Position numbers and translations under genes: made by a program
Shown here: positions 6,748 to 35,143 of the stretch, piece after piece
Numbering within the stretch: the stretch's first letter is position 1
How the letters are laid out: each line of letters begins with the position of its first letter
Notes under the pieces: generated by a model
Database searches by the model: none
Told to the model about the DNA's origin: nothing
The model's input: only the letters and a program-made list of their open reading frames with translations
Source of the DNA: a virus
Direction: 5' to 3' (one strand)
IMG/VR virus record: IMGVR_UViG_3300044302_005479
Coordinates: 1-41,970 of that record
Length of the DNA: 41,970 nucleotides

Positions 6748-7035
6748 CTAAACAGAAAAAGATTGTGGATCTGATGCAGGTTGAAGTTTAGCTGCATAAT
6801 TCTTAGCAAATTGAGATGCCTCAGGAGCAGCTGCATAATTAGCCTCATCTAAATTATCCTTATTGCCTCCAACCCAATCTTTTAGGAAACCAAGTCCTAT
6901 TCCTGCTGCTTTCCATTTATTCCAAGGGAGTGCACCAACAACTGCACCTCCTAAAGCTCCAGGAATACCTCCCTTCTTATAGCCTCGGTATGCACCAATT
7001 CCTGCACCTACTAATAACGGGGCTGCCCAAAGCAT
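6748..7035 (-). CDS. Glycine-zipper membrane protein
   Basis: A 95-aa protein with a Gly/Ala-rich hydrophobic N-terminal half (AAPLLVGAGIGAYRGYKKGG, then IPGALGGAVVGALPW) and a soluble C-terminus. Gly-x3-Gly spacing suggests tightly packed helices that insert in or perforate membranes. The KGGI.GALGG block also occurs in the protein at 30187-30717, so the two may be related virion or membrane-active proteins. Confidence 0.5.
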   Translation of the reverse strand: MLWAAPLLVGAGIGAYRGYKKGGIPGALGGAVVGALPWNKWKAAGIGLGFLKDWVGGNKDNLDEANYAAAPEASQFAKNYAAKLQPASDPQSFSV

Positions 7036-7067
7036 CTATCTAATTAATATTACTTCTTTAAGTTTAC
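7036..7067 (-). promoter_or_regulatory. GTAAACTTA element before minus gene
   Basis: Minus strand GTAAACTTAAAGAAGTAATA, 32 bases before the ATG at 7035 and directly after the psbA terminator. It could restart transcription for the three downstream genes. Confidence 0.45.
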
Positions 7068-7080
7068 TTTTAATACTCAT

Positions 7081-7112
7081 AAGAAAAGACCTGAGGAACC
7101 ACCCCCAGGTCT
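7081..7112 (-). terminator. psbA terminator
   Basis: On the minus strand AGACCTG and CAGGTCT form a perfect 7-bp stem with a 12-base loop, followed by TTTTCTT. It lies 75 bases downstream of the psbA stop. Confidence 0.75.
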
Positions 7113-7186
7113 AGATCTTGCACACACGTACATGATCCTGTAAAACCATGCACCTTATTTAACTTAGCCGAGTAACTCTAAAGAGG

Positions 7187-8272
7187 TCAACCTATTGCCG
7201 GAGCAATAAGCGCAACTGCAGATGTCTCAACAGCTGCCAAATCAAGTGGGAAGTTGTGAGCATTACGCTCGTGCATTACTTCCATACCAAGATTTGCCCT
7301 ATTGAGCACGTCTGCCCATGTAGGTACAATCTTGCCGGAGGAATCGACAATTGACTGATTAAAATTGAATCCATTCAAGTTGAAGGCCATGGTACATATG
7401 CCCATTGAGGTAAGCCAGATGCAAACCACAGGAAAAACAGCAAGAAAGAAATGAAGACTACGAGAGTTATTAAAGGAGGCGTATTGGAAGATAAGACGTC
7501 CGAAGTAGCCATGAGCCGCGACGATGTTGTACGTTTCTTCTTCTTGTCCAAATTTGTAGCCATAATTCTGTGATTCTGATTCTGTAGTTTCTCTAATAAG
7601 TGAAGATGTAACCAATGAACCGTGCATAGCACTAAACAGGGCACCGCCAAACATACCCGCCACACCTGCCATGTGGAATGGATGCATGAGGATATTATGT
7701 TCCGCCTGAAAGACAAACATAAAGTTGAACGTGCCTGAAATGCCCAAAGGCATACCGTCACTGAATGATCCTTGTCCGAAAGGATAGACGAGGAATACAG
7801 CAAACGCGGCAGATACTGGTGCAGAGTAGGCAACACAGATCCAAGGACGCATCCCTAGTCGATAGCTAAGTTCCCATTGTCGTCCCATGTAAGCAGAGAT
7901 ACCAATGAGGAAGTGGAAAATGACGAGCTGGTATGGTCCTCCGTTGTAGAGCCACTCATCAATCGTTGCAGCTTCCCATATTGGGTAAAAATGCAATCCG
8001 ATGGCGTTTGAGCTGGGAACAACGGCTCCTGAGATGATGTTGTTTCCATATAAAAAAGAACCTGCTACAGGTTCGCGAATTCCGTCGATGTCAACGGGTG
8101 GAGCAGCAATAAATGCCACGATGAAACAAGTTGCAGCCGCCAGTAGGCATGGAATCATAAGGACTCCGAACCAACCTACGTAGATACGGTTGTTTGTGGA
8201 AGTAACCCACTCACAAAACTCGTCCCATCCTTGCAATAAACTGCTACTTCTCGTTAAAGAAGTTGTTGTCAT
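7187..8272 (-). CDS. psbA: Photosystem II D1 protein
   Basis: A 361-aa complete D1 protein. D1 binds P680, pheophytin, QB and the Mn4CaO5 cluster in the thylakoid membrane; phage copies replace rapidly damaged host D1 during infection. Numbering is +2 relative to Synechocystis. Visible ligands are D172, E191, H192, H200 (P680), H334, E335, D344 and the processing site after A346, all conserved. Residue 130 (here 132) is Gln, as in D1:1 forms. The C-terminal extension after A346 is 15 residues. It has its own promoter (TATAAT at 8368-8373) and terminator. Codon use looks more GC-rich than its neighbours, as expected for a gene acquired from a cyanobacterium. Confidence 0.98.
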
Positions 8273-8345
8273 TGAAAAGTAAGAGTACGATTAACTTGTA
8301 TGATGAGAGACGTATTCCCCATGGTCTCGGTTTGAGGATATGTAT

Positions 8346-8361
8346 AAGCCTTATAAGGCTT
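8346..8361. repeat. Perfect 16-bp palindrome in psbA leader
   Basis: AAGCCTTATAAGGCTT is fully self-complementary and sits where psbA transcription should start, 7 bases downstream of the -10 box. It could be an operator or a 5'-end RNA hairpin that stabilises the message. Confidence 0.6.
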
Positions 8362-8367
8362 AGTATG

Positions 8368-8373
8368 ATTATA
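8368..8373 (-). promoter_or_regulatory. psbA -10 box
   Basis: Perfect TATAAT on the minus strand, about 95 bases before the psbA ATG. No good TTGACA-type -35 is seen at 16-18 bp, which is common in cyanobacterial promoters. It implies use of the host sigma-70-type polymerase. Confidence 0.7.
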
Positions 8374-8474
8374 CAGGGGTTAAAGTTCGCCTCATAAAAT
8401 TAAAAAACTAAAGCATTTTGTAAGCGCGGCAATACTTTTCAGCAACCCTTGTAAAAAATTCGAACCTACTAATC

Positions 8475-8627
8475 ATGACTAATATCAGTAGTCAGGAAGT
8501 GATAAAAGGAATATATCAAGACAATTTCTACTCCCTTCCTGAAAACAGACACAAACGAGACGATCTAATAAAGAAGATACTTCTCGAACAAAATGAACTA
8601 GACAACAAAAAAGCCCCACCGAAGTGA
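8475..8627 (+). CDS. 50-aa hypothetical protein
   Basis: A short frame diverging from psbA. Charged helical sequence (SSQEVIKGIYQDNFYSLPEN; RDDLIKKILLEQNELDNKKA). The stop lies inside the stem of a terminator-like hairpin. Family not recognised. Confidence 0.45.
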   Translation: MTNISSQEVIKGIYQDNFYSLPENRHKRDDLIKKILLEQNELDNKKAPPK

Positions 8628-8644
8628 AGCTTTAATGATTTTTT
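8610..8644 (+). terminator. Imperfect rho-independent terminator
   Basis: AAAGC...GCTTT plus CAC...GTG around a CGAA loop, with two internal mismatches, followed 5 bases later by TTTTTT. It resembles a decayed copy of the GCCCCACC-type hairpins common in picocyanobacteria. Confidence 0.4.
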
Positions 8645-8688
8645 GGGCAGAGCAGTAACCCAGAAAAAGCTTATATCAAACGCTTAAA

Positions 8689-8844
8689 TTAAGCAACTGC
8701 TTTCTTCTTCTTTGACTCATAGTGATAAAGATGTCCACGATAAATACGCTTAGTATCATCAGTGATAATTTTTCTTTCTGAAGCAGATTCCGCTTTATGA
8801 CTCTGATAAACGGTTCCGCGATAAACTAACTTTGAGCAAGACAT
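8689..8844 (-). CDS. DUF4278 protein
   Basis: A 51-aa protein with two copies of the YRGxxY motif: LVYRGTVY (residues 6-13) and RIYRGHLY (33-40), with a basic C-terminus. This is the signature of DUF4278, a small family in cyanobacteria and their phages with no known function. It is close to a probable small RNA and psbA. The start ATG is followed directly by the family-like core. Confidence 0.75.
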   Translation of the reverse strand: MSCSKLVYRGTVYQSHKAESASERKIITDDTKRIYRGHLYHYESKKKKAVA

Positions 8845-8947
8845 GGAAGGATCTCGTGTGTGACTTAAGTCAATTATAACTATTTTGTAGTCATTGATAC
8901 CGTTTATGCGGATACATTAAATGTAAAGAAAACCTTAAAATATTGAA

Positions 8948-9055
8948 GGGGAGTAGCCCCACCGCTGTCTCTCGGCAGGACTCTCGTTCACTAGGTGTAG
9001 GAAACAGTAAAAACTACACCTCCCCCCAGGGCCTGACACTGTTCTTCTGCGGCCC
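8948..9055 (+). ncRNA. Probable Yfr2-like small RNA
   Basis: A gene-free GC-rich segment with strong RNA structure. GGTGTAG (8994-9000) pairs with CTACACC (9014-9020), exposing a 13-base loop; AGGAAACA spans the stem end and loop. As I recall, AGGAAACA in a hairpin loop is the hallmark of the cyanobacterial Yfr2 family (Cyano-1 motif). GGGGAG (8948-8953) can also pair with CTCCCC (9020-9025), and GGGCC (9029-9033) with GGCCC (9051-9055). TAAAAT at 8936-8941 is a -10-like box 7 bases before 8948. Ends are inferred. Confidence 0.5.
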
Positions 9056-9074
9056 ACCGGATATATTAAACTCG

Positions 9075-9263
9075 CTATATCTTGTCTTTCAAAACTAATG
9101 CGGCTTCTTCAGCCTCACTACGTAATTCATAATTAGTACCCCACCAAACTGATTTACCATCAAAATACCAAGGTCTGTACTTATTTAGATACCCATGAGC
9201 AATGGGATTAACTCCACACTTATGTGGATATAGATCGATAGACCTGTAATTATCAAAAGTCAT
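9075..9263 (-). CDS. Hypothetical protein
   Basis: A 62-aa aromatic-rich protein (TFDNYRSIDLYPHKCGVNPI; RPWYFDGKSVWWGTNYELRS) ending in a helix (EEAALVLKDKI). I chose ATG 9263, one base after the upstream stop, rather than the TTG at 9287 that overlaps the upstream gene. It is probably co-translated with that gene. No family recognised. Confidence 0.5.
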   Translation of the reverse strand: MTFDNYRSIDLYPHKCGVNPIAHGYLNKYRPWYFDGKSVWWGTNYELRSEAEEAALVLKDKI

Positions 9264-30784: not shown

Positions 30785-30973
30785 ATGACAATCTTACCGC
30801 ACGGAACAACAATAGAAGTCTTTGAAAATAGAGGACATAAACAACATTTAGTTTGCTCTAACGGAGGTGGAATGTGCCGCTATGCAAAAACCGAAGATGA
30901 AGCCACCAGATTTGCTGATACCTTTGAAGAATTCTCAAAACATGTTGAGGTTAGGTTACGGAGTGCAATATAG
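30785..30973 (+). CDS. Hypothetical protein
   Basis: A 62-aa alpha/beta protein (HGTTIEVFENRGHKQHLVCS; EATRFADTFEEFSKHVEVRL). Its 3' end contains the first copy of the inverted motif described downstream. Family not recognised. Confidence 0.5.
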   Translation: MTILPHGTTIEVFENRGHKQHLVCSNGGGMCRYAKTEDEATRFADTFEEFSKHVEVRLRSAI

Positions 30974-31226
30974 ATTCCATCAAAAATTTAACAGTCAAAC
31001 ACCTAACCCAAAGTACAGATATTTAAAAAGAACCTAAAAATAAACCAAAAACAAGGTTGGGGAAGTCGACTAATCATATCCAATTTCTCTGAAAACTCTT
31101 CCACCGCGTGTAATTTGATATCAACACCCAAGTTTTAAAAAATAAGGGGGGTTTTACTTAAGTACGTATATGTTGTGGTTAGGTATAAGAGTGTATATAT
31201 AAATATTGACAGTCATGTACCTAACC
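30949..31226. repeat. Four-copy motif GGTTAGGTnnnnGA[GC]TG[TC] as two inverted pairs
   Basis: Copies: 30949-30966 (+), 30991-31008 (-), 31177-31194 (+), 31209-31226 (-). All share GGTTAGGT, 4 free bases and GASTG. The two pairs point toward each other; the second spans only AT-rich DNA (TATATAAATATTG). A TTGACA -35 box at 31206-31211 lies inside copy 4. Looks like an operator or origin array before the HNH/HTH gene. Confidence 0.65.
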
Positions 31227-31341
31227 TCACTATCCTTAGAAGTAAATAATATAGGGGTAAAAATTTTCTATTTGACTGTTGAATGATTTCTTTGTCTCTG
31301 ACAGGCTTTTATGCTAGTCTCTATTTCCCACCCTACTCAAC
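30974..31341. promoter_or_regulatory. 368-bp gene-free regulatory region
   Basis: No gene or RNA fold of note. It holds three of the four inverted motif copies, a G-run at 31145-31151, an AT-rich TATAAATA (31198-31205), TTGACA (31206-31211) with weak -10 matches, and TTTGACTGT (31271-31279) that matches the right half of the motif. I see no coding frame of significance. Likely control region of the gene at 31342. Confidence 0.55.
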
Positions 31342-32493
31342 ATGGTTCAATCTGCTCCTTTTTTAGACAAAGACCTTACACCAGAAGACCAGATAGCTTT
31401 TGCTAAGGCATTCCAAATTGCATTCCAAGGTATAGGGAAAGACAGATGTTGGTGTATGAAAAAACACACTCATGCTGTTTTTCAAGGTTTTAAAACAAGT
31501 AAGACAAGAATCCTTCGCTATAAGAATAAAGATGCACGTCCACTAATACTGGCTATGGCAGGTCAATATAGTGAAGGAAATAAATCAATAGTTGTTAGAA
31601 AAGCTTGCTGTAATTCTCAATATTGTTTAAACCCATCTCACTACTATTGGGGAACAAGGAGTGATGTGGCATATGAAAGTGCACAACGAAGGAAAACAGG
31701 TTTAAATAATGACTTAATAACTAAGTTAAGAGTAGAAAATGAAGAAGGTATAAGTAGTTTGAAATTATCAAAGGTTTATAAAGTCCCATATCATACTGTT
31801 AGACGTATCTGCAATAATGAGATATATGAAGAAGTTGCAGATACTACTCAATCCGATAATCTAACGGAAGTATGGGAAAGAGTACTTCTAACATGCGAAG
31901 AAGTAACCGCTGCTTACCCTAATGAAGCTAAAAAATTTAATCTGGCTTATCACATGACAAATGAATTAGAGTGCCCTTGGCATCAAAAAGGAGAATCAAA
32001 ACACAAAGGTAATTTTGGACTTATGGGAGAATGCCTTGACTGTATGGAAGAGATCAAAAAAGGAAGATGCTCTGTAGATGTTACTAATTTTGATTTTCGA
32101 ACGTGGTACTGGCAAGTAAAAAGCTTCTGGGATCAAGTAGACATAAAAGGATCCGACGAATGTTGGGTATGGCAAGGTGCCACAAGAAAAAATAACACTG
32201 AATCAACAGCTTATTTTCCTGGCTCTCCTTTTCACTCAGCTAAAACTCAATCGGCTCCAAGGGTAGCGTTTTGGTTAAGTCGTGGCTATACAGGTAAATA
32301 TAGGATTTTTAGCAGACCCACATGCAAATCCTTTTGTTGTAACCCAACACACCTTACAATCAAAGAACTCAAAAATTATCCGGAGCCAAATGAAATTGAG
32401 AGAATCAGACTTAGTCATGGAGACATCTTCCAACACCACAAGGACAAAGAGGCCAAAAATAGTAGCAAAAAGCAGTCAAGTCTTTCCAAGTAA
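31342..32493 (+). CDS. Double HNH-like zinc protein with central HTH
   Basis: A 383-aa protein. N-terminal part has CCNSQYCLNPSHYYWGT (89-105), the CxNPxH end of an HNH_3 endonuclease; the middle (122-160; NDLITKLRVENEEGISSLKL, then SKVYKVPYHTVRRICNN) is a resolvase-type helix-turn-helix; the C-terminal part has DECWVWQGA (272-280), RVAFWLSRGY and CCNPTH (332-337), a second HNH_3. In this copy the usual AHR is SAPR and the central His is missing, so cleavage may be lost. It may be a homing-type nuclease turned regulator. It follows the inverted motif array. Confidence 0.65.
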   Translation: MVQSAPFLDKDLTPEDQIAFAKAFQIAFQGIGKDRCWCMKKHTHAVFQGFKTSKTRILRYKNKDARPLILAMAGQYSEGNKSIVVRKACCNSQYCLNPSHYYWGTRSDVAYESAQRRKTGLNNDLITKLRVENEEGISSLKLSKVYKVPYHTVRRICNNEIYEEVADTTQSDNLTEVWERVLLTCEEVTAAYPNEAKKFNLAYHMTNELECPWHQKGESKHKGNFGLMGECLDCMEEIKKGRCSVDVTNFDFRTWYWQVKSFWDQVDIKGSDECWVWQGATRKNNTESTAYFPGSPFHSAKTQSAPRVAFWLSRGYTGKYRIFSRPTCKSFCCNPTHLTIKELKNYPEPNEIERIRLSHGDIFQHHKDKEAKNSSKKQSSLSK

Positions 32494-32818
32494 TTATCAT
32501 TTAGATGAAAAACAATATGCAGGTGTAATTACATTAGGAGGGGAATCGCACTACACTGCTTGGTTTGACGCTGCAGATAGAGAAAGGGCTGATTGGGCTT
32601 TAAAACATTTAGAAATTGCTTTAGATTATGATTCTTATCCAACAATTCAAGAAGAAGGAACAGGCATAGAGGGAGTTAAGGCTATGGCTGAACGAGTTAG
32701 AATAATGGATGAACGATATAAAGAATCTGGCAGAGATGACCCTGATCATCCCATGCATGGATTATTTACTGGCTTAAAAGCAGAATATGAGCAGGTATCT
32801 GACGACAATTCCGAGTAA
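32417..32818 (+). CDS. Hypothetical protein
   Basis: A 133-aa protein with acidic helical C-terminal half (DAADRERADWALKHLEIALD; GVKAMAERVRIMDERYKESG). The frame is open from 32282; I chose ATG 32417 to limit overlap with the HNH gene to 77 bases. Overlaps the next gene by 32 bases. Family not recognised. Confidence 0.45.
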   Translation: METSSNTTRTKRPKIVAKSSQVFPSNYHLDEKQYAGVITLGGESHYTAWFDAADRERADWALKHLEIALDYDSYPTIQEEGTGIEGVKAMAERVRIMDERYKESGRDDPDHPMHGLFTGLKAEYEQVSDDNSE

Positions 32819-33464
32819 TACAGGTTTCTATAACTTAGGAACAGTTGAAGCATATCCTACTGGTGGAGCAGGGCCTACTGCTTATGGTCCTAATTCATAT
32901 TATGGTTCAGATCCACTTCCTCAAGAGAGCGGAGATAACCTTAATAACCCCATTGACTTAGGGGATTTCTCATCGGTGTTTCGATCTTTTACGATCAAAA
33001 ACTCTCATGGAGGATTATCTCGTAAGCAAACAACTTTCTATAAAATAAAATTAGTAGAGCCACGCTCTGTCCAATTTACTCAAGATTATTCTCAATTTTC
33101 CTACGAAGAACAGACAAATAAAAATACACTACTAGCTTTTTATCGCATAACTGAAGATAAGCGTCGAGAAGAACTCCCAATTAATGATGATGGCTATGTA
33201 TATAACGAAGGAGCTGTTGACTACTTAGATGATGAAGTCGAAATTGGAACTGATGACTATCCCATTACTAAGTTAAAACCTGGAGAATATCTATTTTTAA
33301 TTACAAACGATATACGTTATCTCGAAACTACCTATTCGATCAGTATTAATGTCAACGTCCTCGACTGGGGATTGGTCAAGGATGGCTATGACTTAGCTAT
33401 AAACTTTGGTCTAATTACGCAGACCTATGACGAAATATTGAACTTTGGAGAAGTTAACGAGTAA
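32787..33464 (+). CDS. Beta-sandwich protein, PPC-like
   Basis: A 225-aa beta-rich protein. YLTTIPSNTGFYNLGTVEAY at the N-terminus, then NNPIDLGDFSSVFRSFTIKN, FYKIKLVEPRSVQFTQDYSQ, and LKPGEYLFLITNDIRYLETT: the order of a bacterial pre-peptidase C-terminal (PPC) domain, a calcium-type beta sandwich often used for binding carbohydrate or protein. The C-terminus NFGLITQTYDEILNFGEVNE contains a short repeat. Possible virion or adhesion protein. Its stop abuts the convergent gene directly. Confidence 0.55.
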   Translation: MSRYLTTIPSNTGFYNLGTVEAYPTGGAGPTAYGPNSYYGSDPLPQESGDNLNNPIDLGDFSSVFRSFTIKNSHGGLSRKQTTFYKIKLVEPRSVQFTQDYSQFSYEEQTNKNTLLAFYRITEDKRREELPINDDGYVYNEGAVDYLDDEVEIGTDDYPITKLKPGEYLFLITNDIRYLETTYSISINVNVLDWGLVKDGYDLAINFGLITQTYDEILNFGEVNE

Positions 33465-34082
33465 TTACTGAATTATTCTTGGTGGAGAATCATCTATTTC
33501 AACCTTATCGCTTCTCTCATTCCACTTATCAATAACTGGATACCAGTCACGATTAGCCCATGAAGGCTCTTCAAAATCAGGGTAACTAAACTTCTCATTA
33601 TTCTTCTGCTGTGCAGCTAACCAATATGCTTTTTGAGCATTAGCAAGACGAGCTTCAGGACCAGTAGCAGCAGATGCTTGAGCAGCAGCCGTCATTGGTG
33701 GCCTAATTCTTGCTTGCCTACTTGCGCTACCTGCAGTTGGTTTTGATGTTAAAGCATTAATAACTGCAGATGTACCAGCCATTCCTGGTGTTGCTTGAGA
33801 ACCAAAATTAGGTGTACCAGGGAAAGAAGATGATTTATCTAAATCATTTGCTAACTCTGCATTTCTTAAATTAATAGCTGCATGACTAGATCTAACAGCA
33901 CCTGGGGTCTCACCAGCTGACCAACGTCTTTCTTCAATTGCCCTCTCACGATCGTCTAAACGTCTTAAGTAATCCGATGCGTCACTATATGTCTCCTGAG
34001 GAGTCACATCCGTCACAATCTGTGGCGGCGGTGGCGGAGGCGGCATTATAATTGTTGGAGGTGGAGGTGACTTCCTACCCAT
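33465..34082 (-). CDS. Poly-Pro N-terminal Ala-rich protein, possible virion component
   Basis: A 205-aa protein starting MGRKSPPPPTIIMPPPPPPP, like the MGRGRSSPPPPPP start of the protein at 2911. Then a charged helix (ASDYLRRLDDRERAIEERRW), an Ala/Ser/Thr-rich middle and a Trp-rich end (EPSWANRDWYPVIDKWNERS). No membrane segment. The shared head may be a virion-targeting tag. It has the AGATAGAAT element at -37. Confidence 0.6.
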   Translation of the reverse strand: MGRKSPPPPTIIMPPPPPPPQIVTDVTPQETYSDASDYLRRLDDRERAIEERRWSAGETPGAVRSSHAAINLRNAELANDLDKSSSFPGTPNFGSQATPGMAGTSAVINALTSKPTAGSASRQARIRPPMTAAAQASAATGPEARLANAQKAYWLAAQQKNNEKFSYPDFEEPSWANRDWYPVIDKWNERSDKVEIDDSPPRIIQ

Positions 34083-34100
34083 TGTCTATTTAAGCTTAAT

Positions 34101-34120
34101 CTCTATACTGATTCTATCTG
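34101..34120 (-). promoter_or_regulatory. CAGATAGAATCAGTATAGAG element
   Basis: Read on the minus strand, the AGATAGAAT core begins 37 bases before the ATG at 34082. Same core and distance as before 2241 and 2911. Putative late promoter. Confidence 0.45.
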
Positions 34121-34136
34121 TCACAAACCCGTGTAA

Positions 34137-34553
34137 ATGCTGGACACCGATAACGCCAACGGGCAAAAGTGCGAGGATCAAGAGCAACTCAGCATAAGTA
34201 ATAGGTCGGCGCATGATGAACAGTATCCTTTCCTTAAAGAGTTTAACCAACTTATAGCACAAGTGTCTATAGAGGACTTGGAAAATAACCTACTTACTCA
34301 TAATCAAAAGAATTTTGCTAAGAGCCTATGGGAAGCTGAGAACTATGGGGGATCAAGAACTAAATGTGAGAAAAGACTAAAGGAAATACATGGACCTAAA
34401 TGGTATTTAGTCACCTCAATAGATGAGAATATGGATGATATTCGAGAATATTATGAATTGGTTCTTCGAATAGATCATAGACAACAATGGGATGAATATT
34501 GGAATAAACAGGAAAACTCCGCTAAGCTTCAAATAACCTCAGACCTCGAATGA
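34137..34553 (+). CDS. Hypothetical protein
   Basis: A 138-aa acidic helical protein (DEQYPFLKEFNQLIAQVSIE; NMDDIREYYELVLRIDHRQQ). Diverges from the minus-strand virion-like gene; overlaps the next gene by four bases (ATGA). No family recognised. Confidence 0.5.
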   Translation: MLDTDNANGQKCEDQEQLSISNRSAHDEQYPFLKEFNQLIAQVSIEDLENNLLTHNQKNFAKSLWEAENYGGSRTKCEKRLKEIHGPKWYLVTSIDENMDDIREYYELVLRIDHRQQWDEYWNKQENSAKLQITSDLE

Positions 34554-35143
34554 CAGTTATAAAAAACGAGGCGTGGATTGAAGCTCTAAATCAAACGGAA
34601 TATGAACCGATAGAAACAGATGAAAATGTCTATCAGAGTTACAGATTCTCCGAATTAGATATAGAAACAGTCACCGTAAAAAATTATAGAGAGCTATTAG
34701 TAGATTCATTAATCGAACAAGTAGAAATCTTTATACCTCCATCTGGTAGCTTTGAAAATCCGGATCTACACAGGTATCTTGAATTAATTTGTAGCTACGA
34801 AACGAGTACAACAGACTTAATGCTAGGTCTATCTTTAGCCGATCAAATCAGATTAACTTTCAGCGATATGAGAACAAGCACTATCTGTGATCGCTACCCA
34901 GAAATCAATCTGGCAGAAAAACGTCGCTATCGGTGCGTCGCTGAATATTTGATACGCCAAGGTGAATTGACAAAATTGAGAGATGAAAATGGCAAATTAA
35001 TAAAAAAAATTGGAAATATGCAGAAAGCGGTAGTCTTATATCAACCTCTACCTAAGCTCTTGGAGACTCTAAAGAAATCAGGGTTAGGACATCTCATTAA
35101 ATCAGTCTTAAAAGAAAAGCCTGGAAATAAAGAGAAAGCTTGA
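34550..35143 (+). CDS. Hypothetical protein
   Basis: A 197-aa protein, mixed alpha/beta at first then basic helices (KRRYRCVAEYLIRQGELTKL; LPKLLETLKKSGLGHLIKSV). No membrane segment. Co-translated with the preceding gene. Function unknown. Confidence 0.5.
   Translation: MTVIKNEAWIEALNQTEYEPIETDENVYQSYRFSELDIETVTVKNYRELLVDSLIEQVEIFIPPSGSFENPDLHRYLELICSYETSTTDLMLGLSLADQIRLTFSDMRTSTICDRYPEINLAEKRRYRCVAEYLIRQGELTKLRDENGKLIKKIGNMQKAVVLYQPLPKLLETLKKSGLGHLIKSVLKEKPGNKEKA

Follow-up and report, generated by a model that had tools for sequence, protein, structure and literature searches.

A viral record of 41,970 nucleotides (IMG/VR IMGVR_UViG_3300044302_005479), analysed here over its whole length and referred to as the window, carries a cluster of inverted sequence motifs directly upstream of a gene for a 383-aa protein. 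This locus raises the question of what the motif cluster does and whether the adjoining protein acts on it. The initial annotation had suggested that the protein may bind the motifs and repress its own gene, or that the array may be an origin or termination site. The following sections describe the lineage in which the locus is found, the architecture of the array, the promoter and protein next to it, and the explanation that best accounts for them.

Genome and gene neighbourhood

The window represents part of a cyanophage genome and carries psbA, a family-A DNA polymerase and a primase. Among isolate phages, only Synechococcus phage S-EIV1 has a primase that matches this one over its full length (34% identity), and several other window genes also match S-EIV1. 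On sequence similarity, the genome belongs to the S-EIV1 lineage. The gene for the 383-aa protein (31342..32493, + strand) is a core gene of this lineage: a homologue is encoded by 30 of the 33 contigs that bear the primase, and the remaining three end within ~6 kb of the primase, before the ~10 kb distance where the gene would be expected is reached. No homologue was confirmed in bacterial and archaeal genomes.

The gene is located between a tail-fibre block and genes without assigned function, ~10 kb from the primase, and its immediate neighbours are constant. Most members have an upstream ORF of 48-66 aa, which in the window encodes 62 aa (30785..30973, + strand), contains the motif GTTIEV...VCS.GG.MCRYA and is conserved and co-oriented in many relatives. 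Downstream ORFs of ~103-142 aa and ~225 aa follow (142 aa and 225 aa in the window, 32390..33464, + strand) in an order that is kept among relatives, and these two genes are possibly in an operon with the putative regulator gene. The 142-aa ORF overlaps the end of that gene by ~100 bases in another frame (32390-32493), in marine and freshwater relatives alike, and a tblastn search with the 225-aa protein gave no match in isolate phages.

Two other roles for the locus were considered and set aside. A packaging end (cos) was rejected, the array being internal in most contigs. In the 81-kb contig G029 the primase is near the right end and the gene near the left, spaced as expected if the genome is permuted; given these two observations, the array is not a fixed genome end. 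A tRNA or attachment-site reading was likewise dropped, as the window contains no tRNA.

Architecture of the array

The motif GGTTAGGTnnnnGASTGY is present as four exact copies, at 30949(+), 30991(-), 31177(+) and 31209(-), and a pattern scan of the whole 42-kb record finds none elsewhere. None of 100 dinucleotide shuffles contains four matches, even with two mismatches allowed. These copies, termed A sites, form two convergent pairs, so that both the motif and its arrangement are as first described. Pair 1 consists of site 1 (GGTTAGGTTACGGAGTGC, 30949..30966, + strand) as its left half and site 2 (GGTTAGGTGTTTGACTGT, 30991..31008, - strand) as its right half, and site 1 has a counterpart at the equivalent position in L005, L015, L033 and L050. 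Pair 2 consists of site 3 (GGTTAGGTATAAGAGTGT, 31177..31194, + strand) on the left, which adjoins a dyad centre at ~31201, and site 4 (GGTTAGGTACATGACTGT, 31209..31226, - strand) on the right. In most relatives the + copies end in GAGTGY and the - copies in GACTGT, so the halves of each pair can be distinguished and the array is not a mere duplicated palindrome. The description of this region as the only long gene-free one does not hold, since the 62-aa ORF runs into site 1 at its 3' end and 8273-9074 is another long gene-poor stretch.

To examine the distribution of the array, contigs were collected from 2.9 million viral contigs by a convergent motif pair alone and then checked for a homologue of the protein. 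One such pair is present on 29 contigs, all of which encode the homologue directly adjoining the motif. The motif is found with at most one mismatch in 21 of 25 whole related records, and essentially all matches are at this locus, the sole exception being one near-match elsewhere in G018. Conservation upstream of the homologues and clustering at one locus were the two points on which the initial annotation had made its reading depend, and both are borne out. In several members (L034, L036, L040 and S-EIV1) the A motif itself is diverged or absent and only the palindromic layout is kept. The upstream region of L160 carries three further A-type sites at -470 to -385, five in total.

The array is larger than was first described. 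GRSTGTTSA half-sites, termed B, flank pair 2 as mirror images, and in aligned upstream regions the conserved element reads TTGGGTGTTSA on either side of the pair in mirror orientation. B_left (GGGTGTTGA, 31121..31129, - strand) ranks with the best half-site matches that are not A sites, and B_right (GACTGTTGA, 31274..31282, + strand) is the best non-A half-site in the window. In G011 exact matches to TTGGGTGTTSA are confined to the array, and in G001 they are found there and at one other place. The likeness between B and A was evaluated with a matrix built from the 3' halves of the A sites, leaving out the genome being tested. Of 30 non-redundant genomes, 23 have their best non-A match inside a B window (expected 20%; binomial p 7e-11), and 15 have matches on both arms (expected 2%). 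By this measure, the B boxes are A-like half-sites.

A motif-free search for inverted repeats points to the same block. In most of 34 non-redundant loci the dyad centre lies at approximately -139 to -166 from the start codon, and the inverted-repeat score at the expected centre exceeds that of genomic control windows (Mann-Whitney p 2e-21). The genomes are related, and the p-values for the half-sites and the block are therefore optimistic, overstating independence. Scores exceed the control 95th percentile in 30 of the 34 loci and the 99th in 21, and in S-EIV1 (19.6) and G015 (23.8) the block score equals the whole-genome control maximum for that geometry; L166 shows no clear inverted repeat. 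The sequence of the block differs between clades, with both arms changing together (TTGGGTGTTCA, TTGGTCGTTTA, TAAGGCTGTTACTTCA). Separate palindromes of the type TGAGTCTCA / GTCTCA..TGAGAC are present near the array in freshwater members (upstream regions of L148, L149, L155 and L163), and S-EIV1 carries the same type twice, at 7998 and 11907.

Predicted promoter ahead of the gene

The flank of site 4 reads TTGACA at 31206-31211. The overlap of such a box with the site was correctly noted in the initial annotation, but its role as a covered promoter element is not borne out: in an alignment of relatives the box is not conserved, most of them reading TTAAACAG, TTTAACAG or similar at this position, and the conserved promoter is instead located ~80 bp downstream. 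In many relatives TTGnCA starts exactly 4 bp after B_right and is followed by 17 bp, TAnnnT and, close by, the start codon. Alignment on B_right in 21 loci places the corresponding predicted promoter of the window at 31287..31315 (+ strand), with a -35 box TTTCTT (31287-31292), a 17-bp spacer and a -10 box TATGCT (31310-31315). The window's -35 box is weak, where many relatives have TTGCCA or TTGTCA, and an unguided promoter scan of the window misses this proposed sigma70-like promoter.

The promoter signal is one-sided. The right arm exceeds shuffles (p 4e-4) and also exceeds the left arm (p 0.002), and a divergent promoter on the left arm was rejected for want of signal (p 0.85). Two further elements were seen near the promoter. 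CCCTAC(T), a few bases 5' of the start codon (31330-31336 in the window), falls in the 5' leaders of homologues and is kept in most marine and some freshwater ones, and a possible third nested dyad, CCSTTGCnnnGCAASGG, may surround the -35 box in freshwater members, as judged by eye only.

The 383-aa protein

The ORF is real, and its description as two degenerate HNH halves around a central HTH is supported, the C-terminal half having HNH-type similarity in profile matches and the N-terminal half being HNH-like in its predicted structure. The order of features is a first pseudo-HNH domain (~30-120), a resolvase/transposase-like HTH (120-160), a zinc-knuckle-like CPWH..CLDC stretch (211-234) and a second pseudo-HNH domain (~260-345). 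In a profile search the C-terminal half matches PHROG 1872 (E 1.1e-11) as well as PHROG 826 and 3593, and PHROG 1872 is matched by all 17 C-terminal halves tested, S-EIV1-type proteins included. A Pfam search with the 383-aa protein gives no HNH match and only sub-threshold HTH-like matches, and a profile search of solved chains (PDB) gives no significant match, NFI and SMAD included. The HTH has weak similarity to the HTHs of the Sleeping Beauty and IstA transposases and resembles that of IstA in the model. Family searches return HNH-type domains only, with no GIY-YIG match, and the models point to HNH/His-Me folds.

Predicted structures were compared with solved ones, where a Z below 8 may reflect a common arrangement only. 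The N-terminal half resembles I-HmuI (Z 4.9, rmsd 3.2, 80 aligned) and I-PpoI (Z 4.4), modest values from models of medium confidence (pLDDT 62-65). For the C-terminal half (pLDDT 62) the best matches are NFI (Z 5.9) and SMAD MH1 (Z 4.5), followed by I-PpoI (Z 3.5), and the 28 best rows are all NFI or SMAD MH1, with Z of at most 5.9.

Among 87 homologues, the catalytic His is absent from 76 of 77 first HNH domains, and 81 of 82 second domains have no His near the position. The cysteines and the NP.H motif are retained despite this absence, and the annotated relatives StAB gp46 and Firecracker gp54 retain the catalytic His. Purifying selection acts on the gene, dN/dS being 0.04-0.12 wherever computed and 0.06-0.12 in four pairs (0.059/0.51, 0.128/1.56, 0.043/0.72 and 0.069/0.93). 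In L040 and G044 (33774-34783) the protein is split into two open frames between its halves, which is either a real split gene or a frameshift error.

A further comparison is provided by S-EIV1 (KJ410740), in which a hypothetical protein at 7027-7704 is a homologue of the C-terminal half. Like the gene in the window, it is preceded by nested inverted repeats that are unique in its genome; it differs in having 225 aa and in lacking the N-terminal HNH and the HTH. Its A motif is also different, GGATATGTAAGAT, of which three copies are found in S-EIV1, only upstream of this gene, and one overlaps the TATAAT -10 box before the start codon. The S-EIV1 array lacks GGTTAGGT and retains GGCTGTTAC half-sites on both arms. 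The joint absence of the N-terminal half and of GGTTAGGT suggests that the C-terminal half would read the GRSTGTTCA half of the site and the N-terminal half GGTTAGGT.

Proposed function and alternatives

The array is probably the operator of the downstream gene, bound by the gene's own product, a putative nuclease-derived DNA-binding protein that most likely acts as a repressor. The product would descend from HNH nucleases, with two His-Me-finger (HNH) domains that lack the catalytic His, a transposase-type HTH and a zinc-knuckle-like stretch, and would now bind DNA only, with no cutting. It would recognise both the full A sites in their two convergent pairs and the B half-sites, which together make up a block with mirror symmetry whose centre lies ~140 bp 5' of the start codon. 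Occupancy of B_right, which adjoins the -35 box, would be stabilised by the central A pair and would set the level of the single rightward promoter, which would most likely be repressed once enough protein has accumulated. Binding of the protein to the sites, the sign of regulation and the assignment of domains to half-sites are inferred. Repression is favoured because the S-EIV1 site lies on the -10 box and because of the precedent of I-TevI, which represses its own promoter (PMC2988022). Of the proposals made in the initial annotation, self-regulation by a nuclease-derived protein is the best-supported reading, with a homologue encoded beside the motif on 29 of 29 motif-bearing contigs and the motif not scattered; a lysogeny-type switch lacks evidence, and a termination site found no support.

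A plain operator would not obviously require a mirror half-site on the promoter-less left arm or a second A pair 220 bp upstream, and this excess leaves room for an origin or a higher-order complex. In the strict form of this alternative, considered unlikely, the block is a replication origin on whose symmetric B-A-A-B layout with A/T-rich arms an initiation complex for bidirectional replication would assemble, the protein being the initiator and its autoregulation a by-product. Autoregulation is common among initiators, there is one block per genome, and the mirror symmetry extends well past the promoter-bearing arm, to an imperfect repeat of 229 bp in the relative L160. The region also ranks with the stretches that melt more easily in the window, G001 and S-EIV1, although it is not the genome melting minimum in G011 or G015 at a scale of 150-300 bp. 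The structural neighbour NFI is also an adenovirus origin-binding factor. Against an origin stand several observations: GC skew does not switch consistently at the array in any of S-EIV1, G011 and G001, the promoter on the right arm is one-sided and position-locked, and the gene lies between a tail-fibre block and function-unassigned genes, ~10 kb from the primase. In animal systems NFI serves both an origin and promoters, and a bacterial-virus counterpart is conceivable in which a protein that joins an HTH and a zinc knuckle to two nuclease-dead HNH domains would assemble on a single block that is both replication origin and control region of its own gene, as a new protein class; this combination is rather more doubtful.

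Regulation could also be positive, with the protein at B_right drawing RNA polymerase to the promoter of its own gene and so closing a positive loop. The location of B_right at approximately -48 to -40 from the predicted start is a class-II activator position, and the weak -35 box of the window would need help. Many relatives have good -35 and -10 boxes that would not, however, and the S-EIV1 site overlaps the -10/start region, a repressor position, which leaves activation improbable. It is highly improbable that the array is a cleavage or homing target whose sites mark the insertion locus of an active HNH endonuclease: the protein is HNH / His-Me-finger-like in sequence and predicted fold, but the catalytic His present in annotated relatives is missing nearly throughout, the gene is core and syntenic instead of sporadic, and an active enzyme would cut its own genome at the several sites kept beside the gene. 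The repeats might instead act at the RNA level, forming an attenuator or terminator hairpin when transcription reads through from the 62-aa ORF. This would fit arms that are complementary and covary between clades, but is likewise highly improbable. A terminator scan finds no terminator-like site at the array, an Rfam search of the array and the whole window gives no match there, and the inward halves mismatch systematically (GAGTGT versus GACTGT). Pairs 1 and 2 of a genome are moreover closer to each other in their genome-specific site sequence than sites from foreign genomes are, in keeping with a trans-acting protein; this is supporting evidence only, since the similarity-based search for inner pairs mis-registers several freshwater genomes.

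Relation to known systems

Self-regulating nuclease-type phage proteins and DNA-binding factors of nuclease-like fold are already known, I-TevI being an example of the former and SMAD and NFI of the latter. The proposed role most resembles that of I-TevI, a GIY-YIG homing endonuclease of phage T4 with a zinc finger and an operator at its own late promoter, through which it limits its own expression (PMC2988022). A conserved candidate operator at the gene's own promoter is shared, B_right being 4 bp from the -35 box and the S-EIV1 site over the -10 box; the intron-borne or sporadic occurrence of a mobile element is not, with 30 of 33 contigs encoding the gene among constant neighbours. I-TevI is active, intron-encoded and served by a single operator, whereas the 383-aa protein has two HNH domains without the catalytic His, a free-standing core gene and a predicted multi-site palindromic operator.

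The predicted fold of the C-terminal half is similar to those of SMAD MH1 and NFI, which bind palindromic DNA without cutting it. Both are eukaryotic, contain a single such domain and share only ~9-17% identity with the C-terminal half (Z 4-6 to the model), and no common ancestry beyond the His-Me-finger fold is claimed from the predicted structures. Homology is detectable with the HNH endonucleases of PHROG 1872, 826 and 3593 (E 1e-11 to the family), among them Corynebacterium phage StAB gp46 and Mycobacterium phage Firecracker gp54. Judged by eye, an HTH-like segment comes after the HNH of StAB gp46, which matches the domain order of the N-terminal half here. These enzymes keep the catalytic His that the 383-aa protein has lost in both HNH copies, and the zinc-knuckle-like stretch between the copies also sets it apart from them.

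A limited literature search found no phage protein that combines a pair of degenerate HNH domains and an HTH with a mirror-symmetric operator of several sites. If the proposed reading is correct, a cutting enzyme has apparently become a regulator that a widespread but little-studied cyanophage lineage keeps as a core gene, in parallel with the nuclease-like fold of the SMAD and NFI domains of animals. With sites that vary between clades in a constant layout, the related phages would offer a natural experiment on the division of labour between two HNH-derived domains and an HTH in reading a single DNA site.

Other features of the window

A G+C-rich stretch between ORFs upstream of psbA (8935-9075, - strand) is 96% identical in G001 (L080) and 79% identical over 113 nt in G011 (L072). 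It folds to -48 kcal/mol (z -1.6), has no Rfam match and is a possible phage structured RNA. Just upstream of psbA, where the PhotoRC-II RNA family is expected, 8288-8353 (- strand) has a weak match to this family (21.5 bits versus a gathering score of 39).
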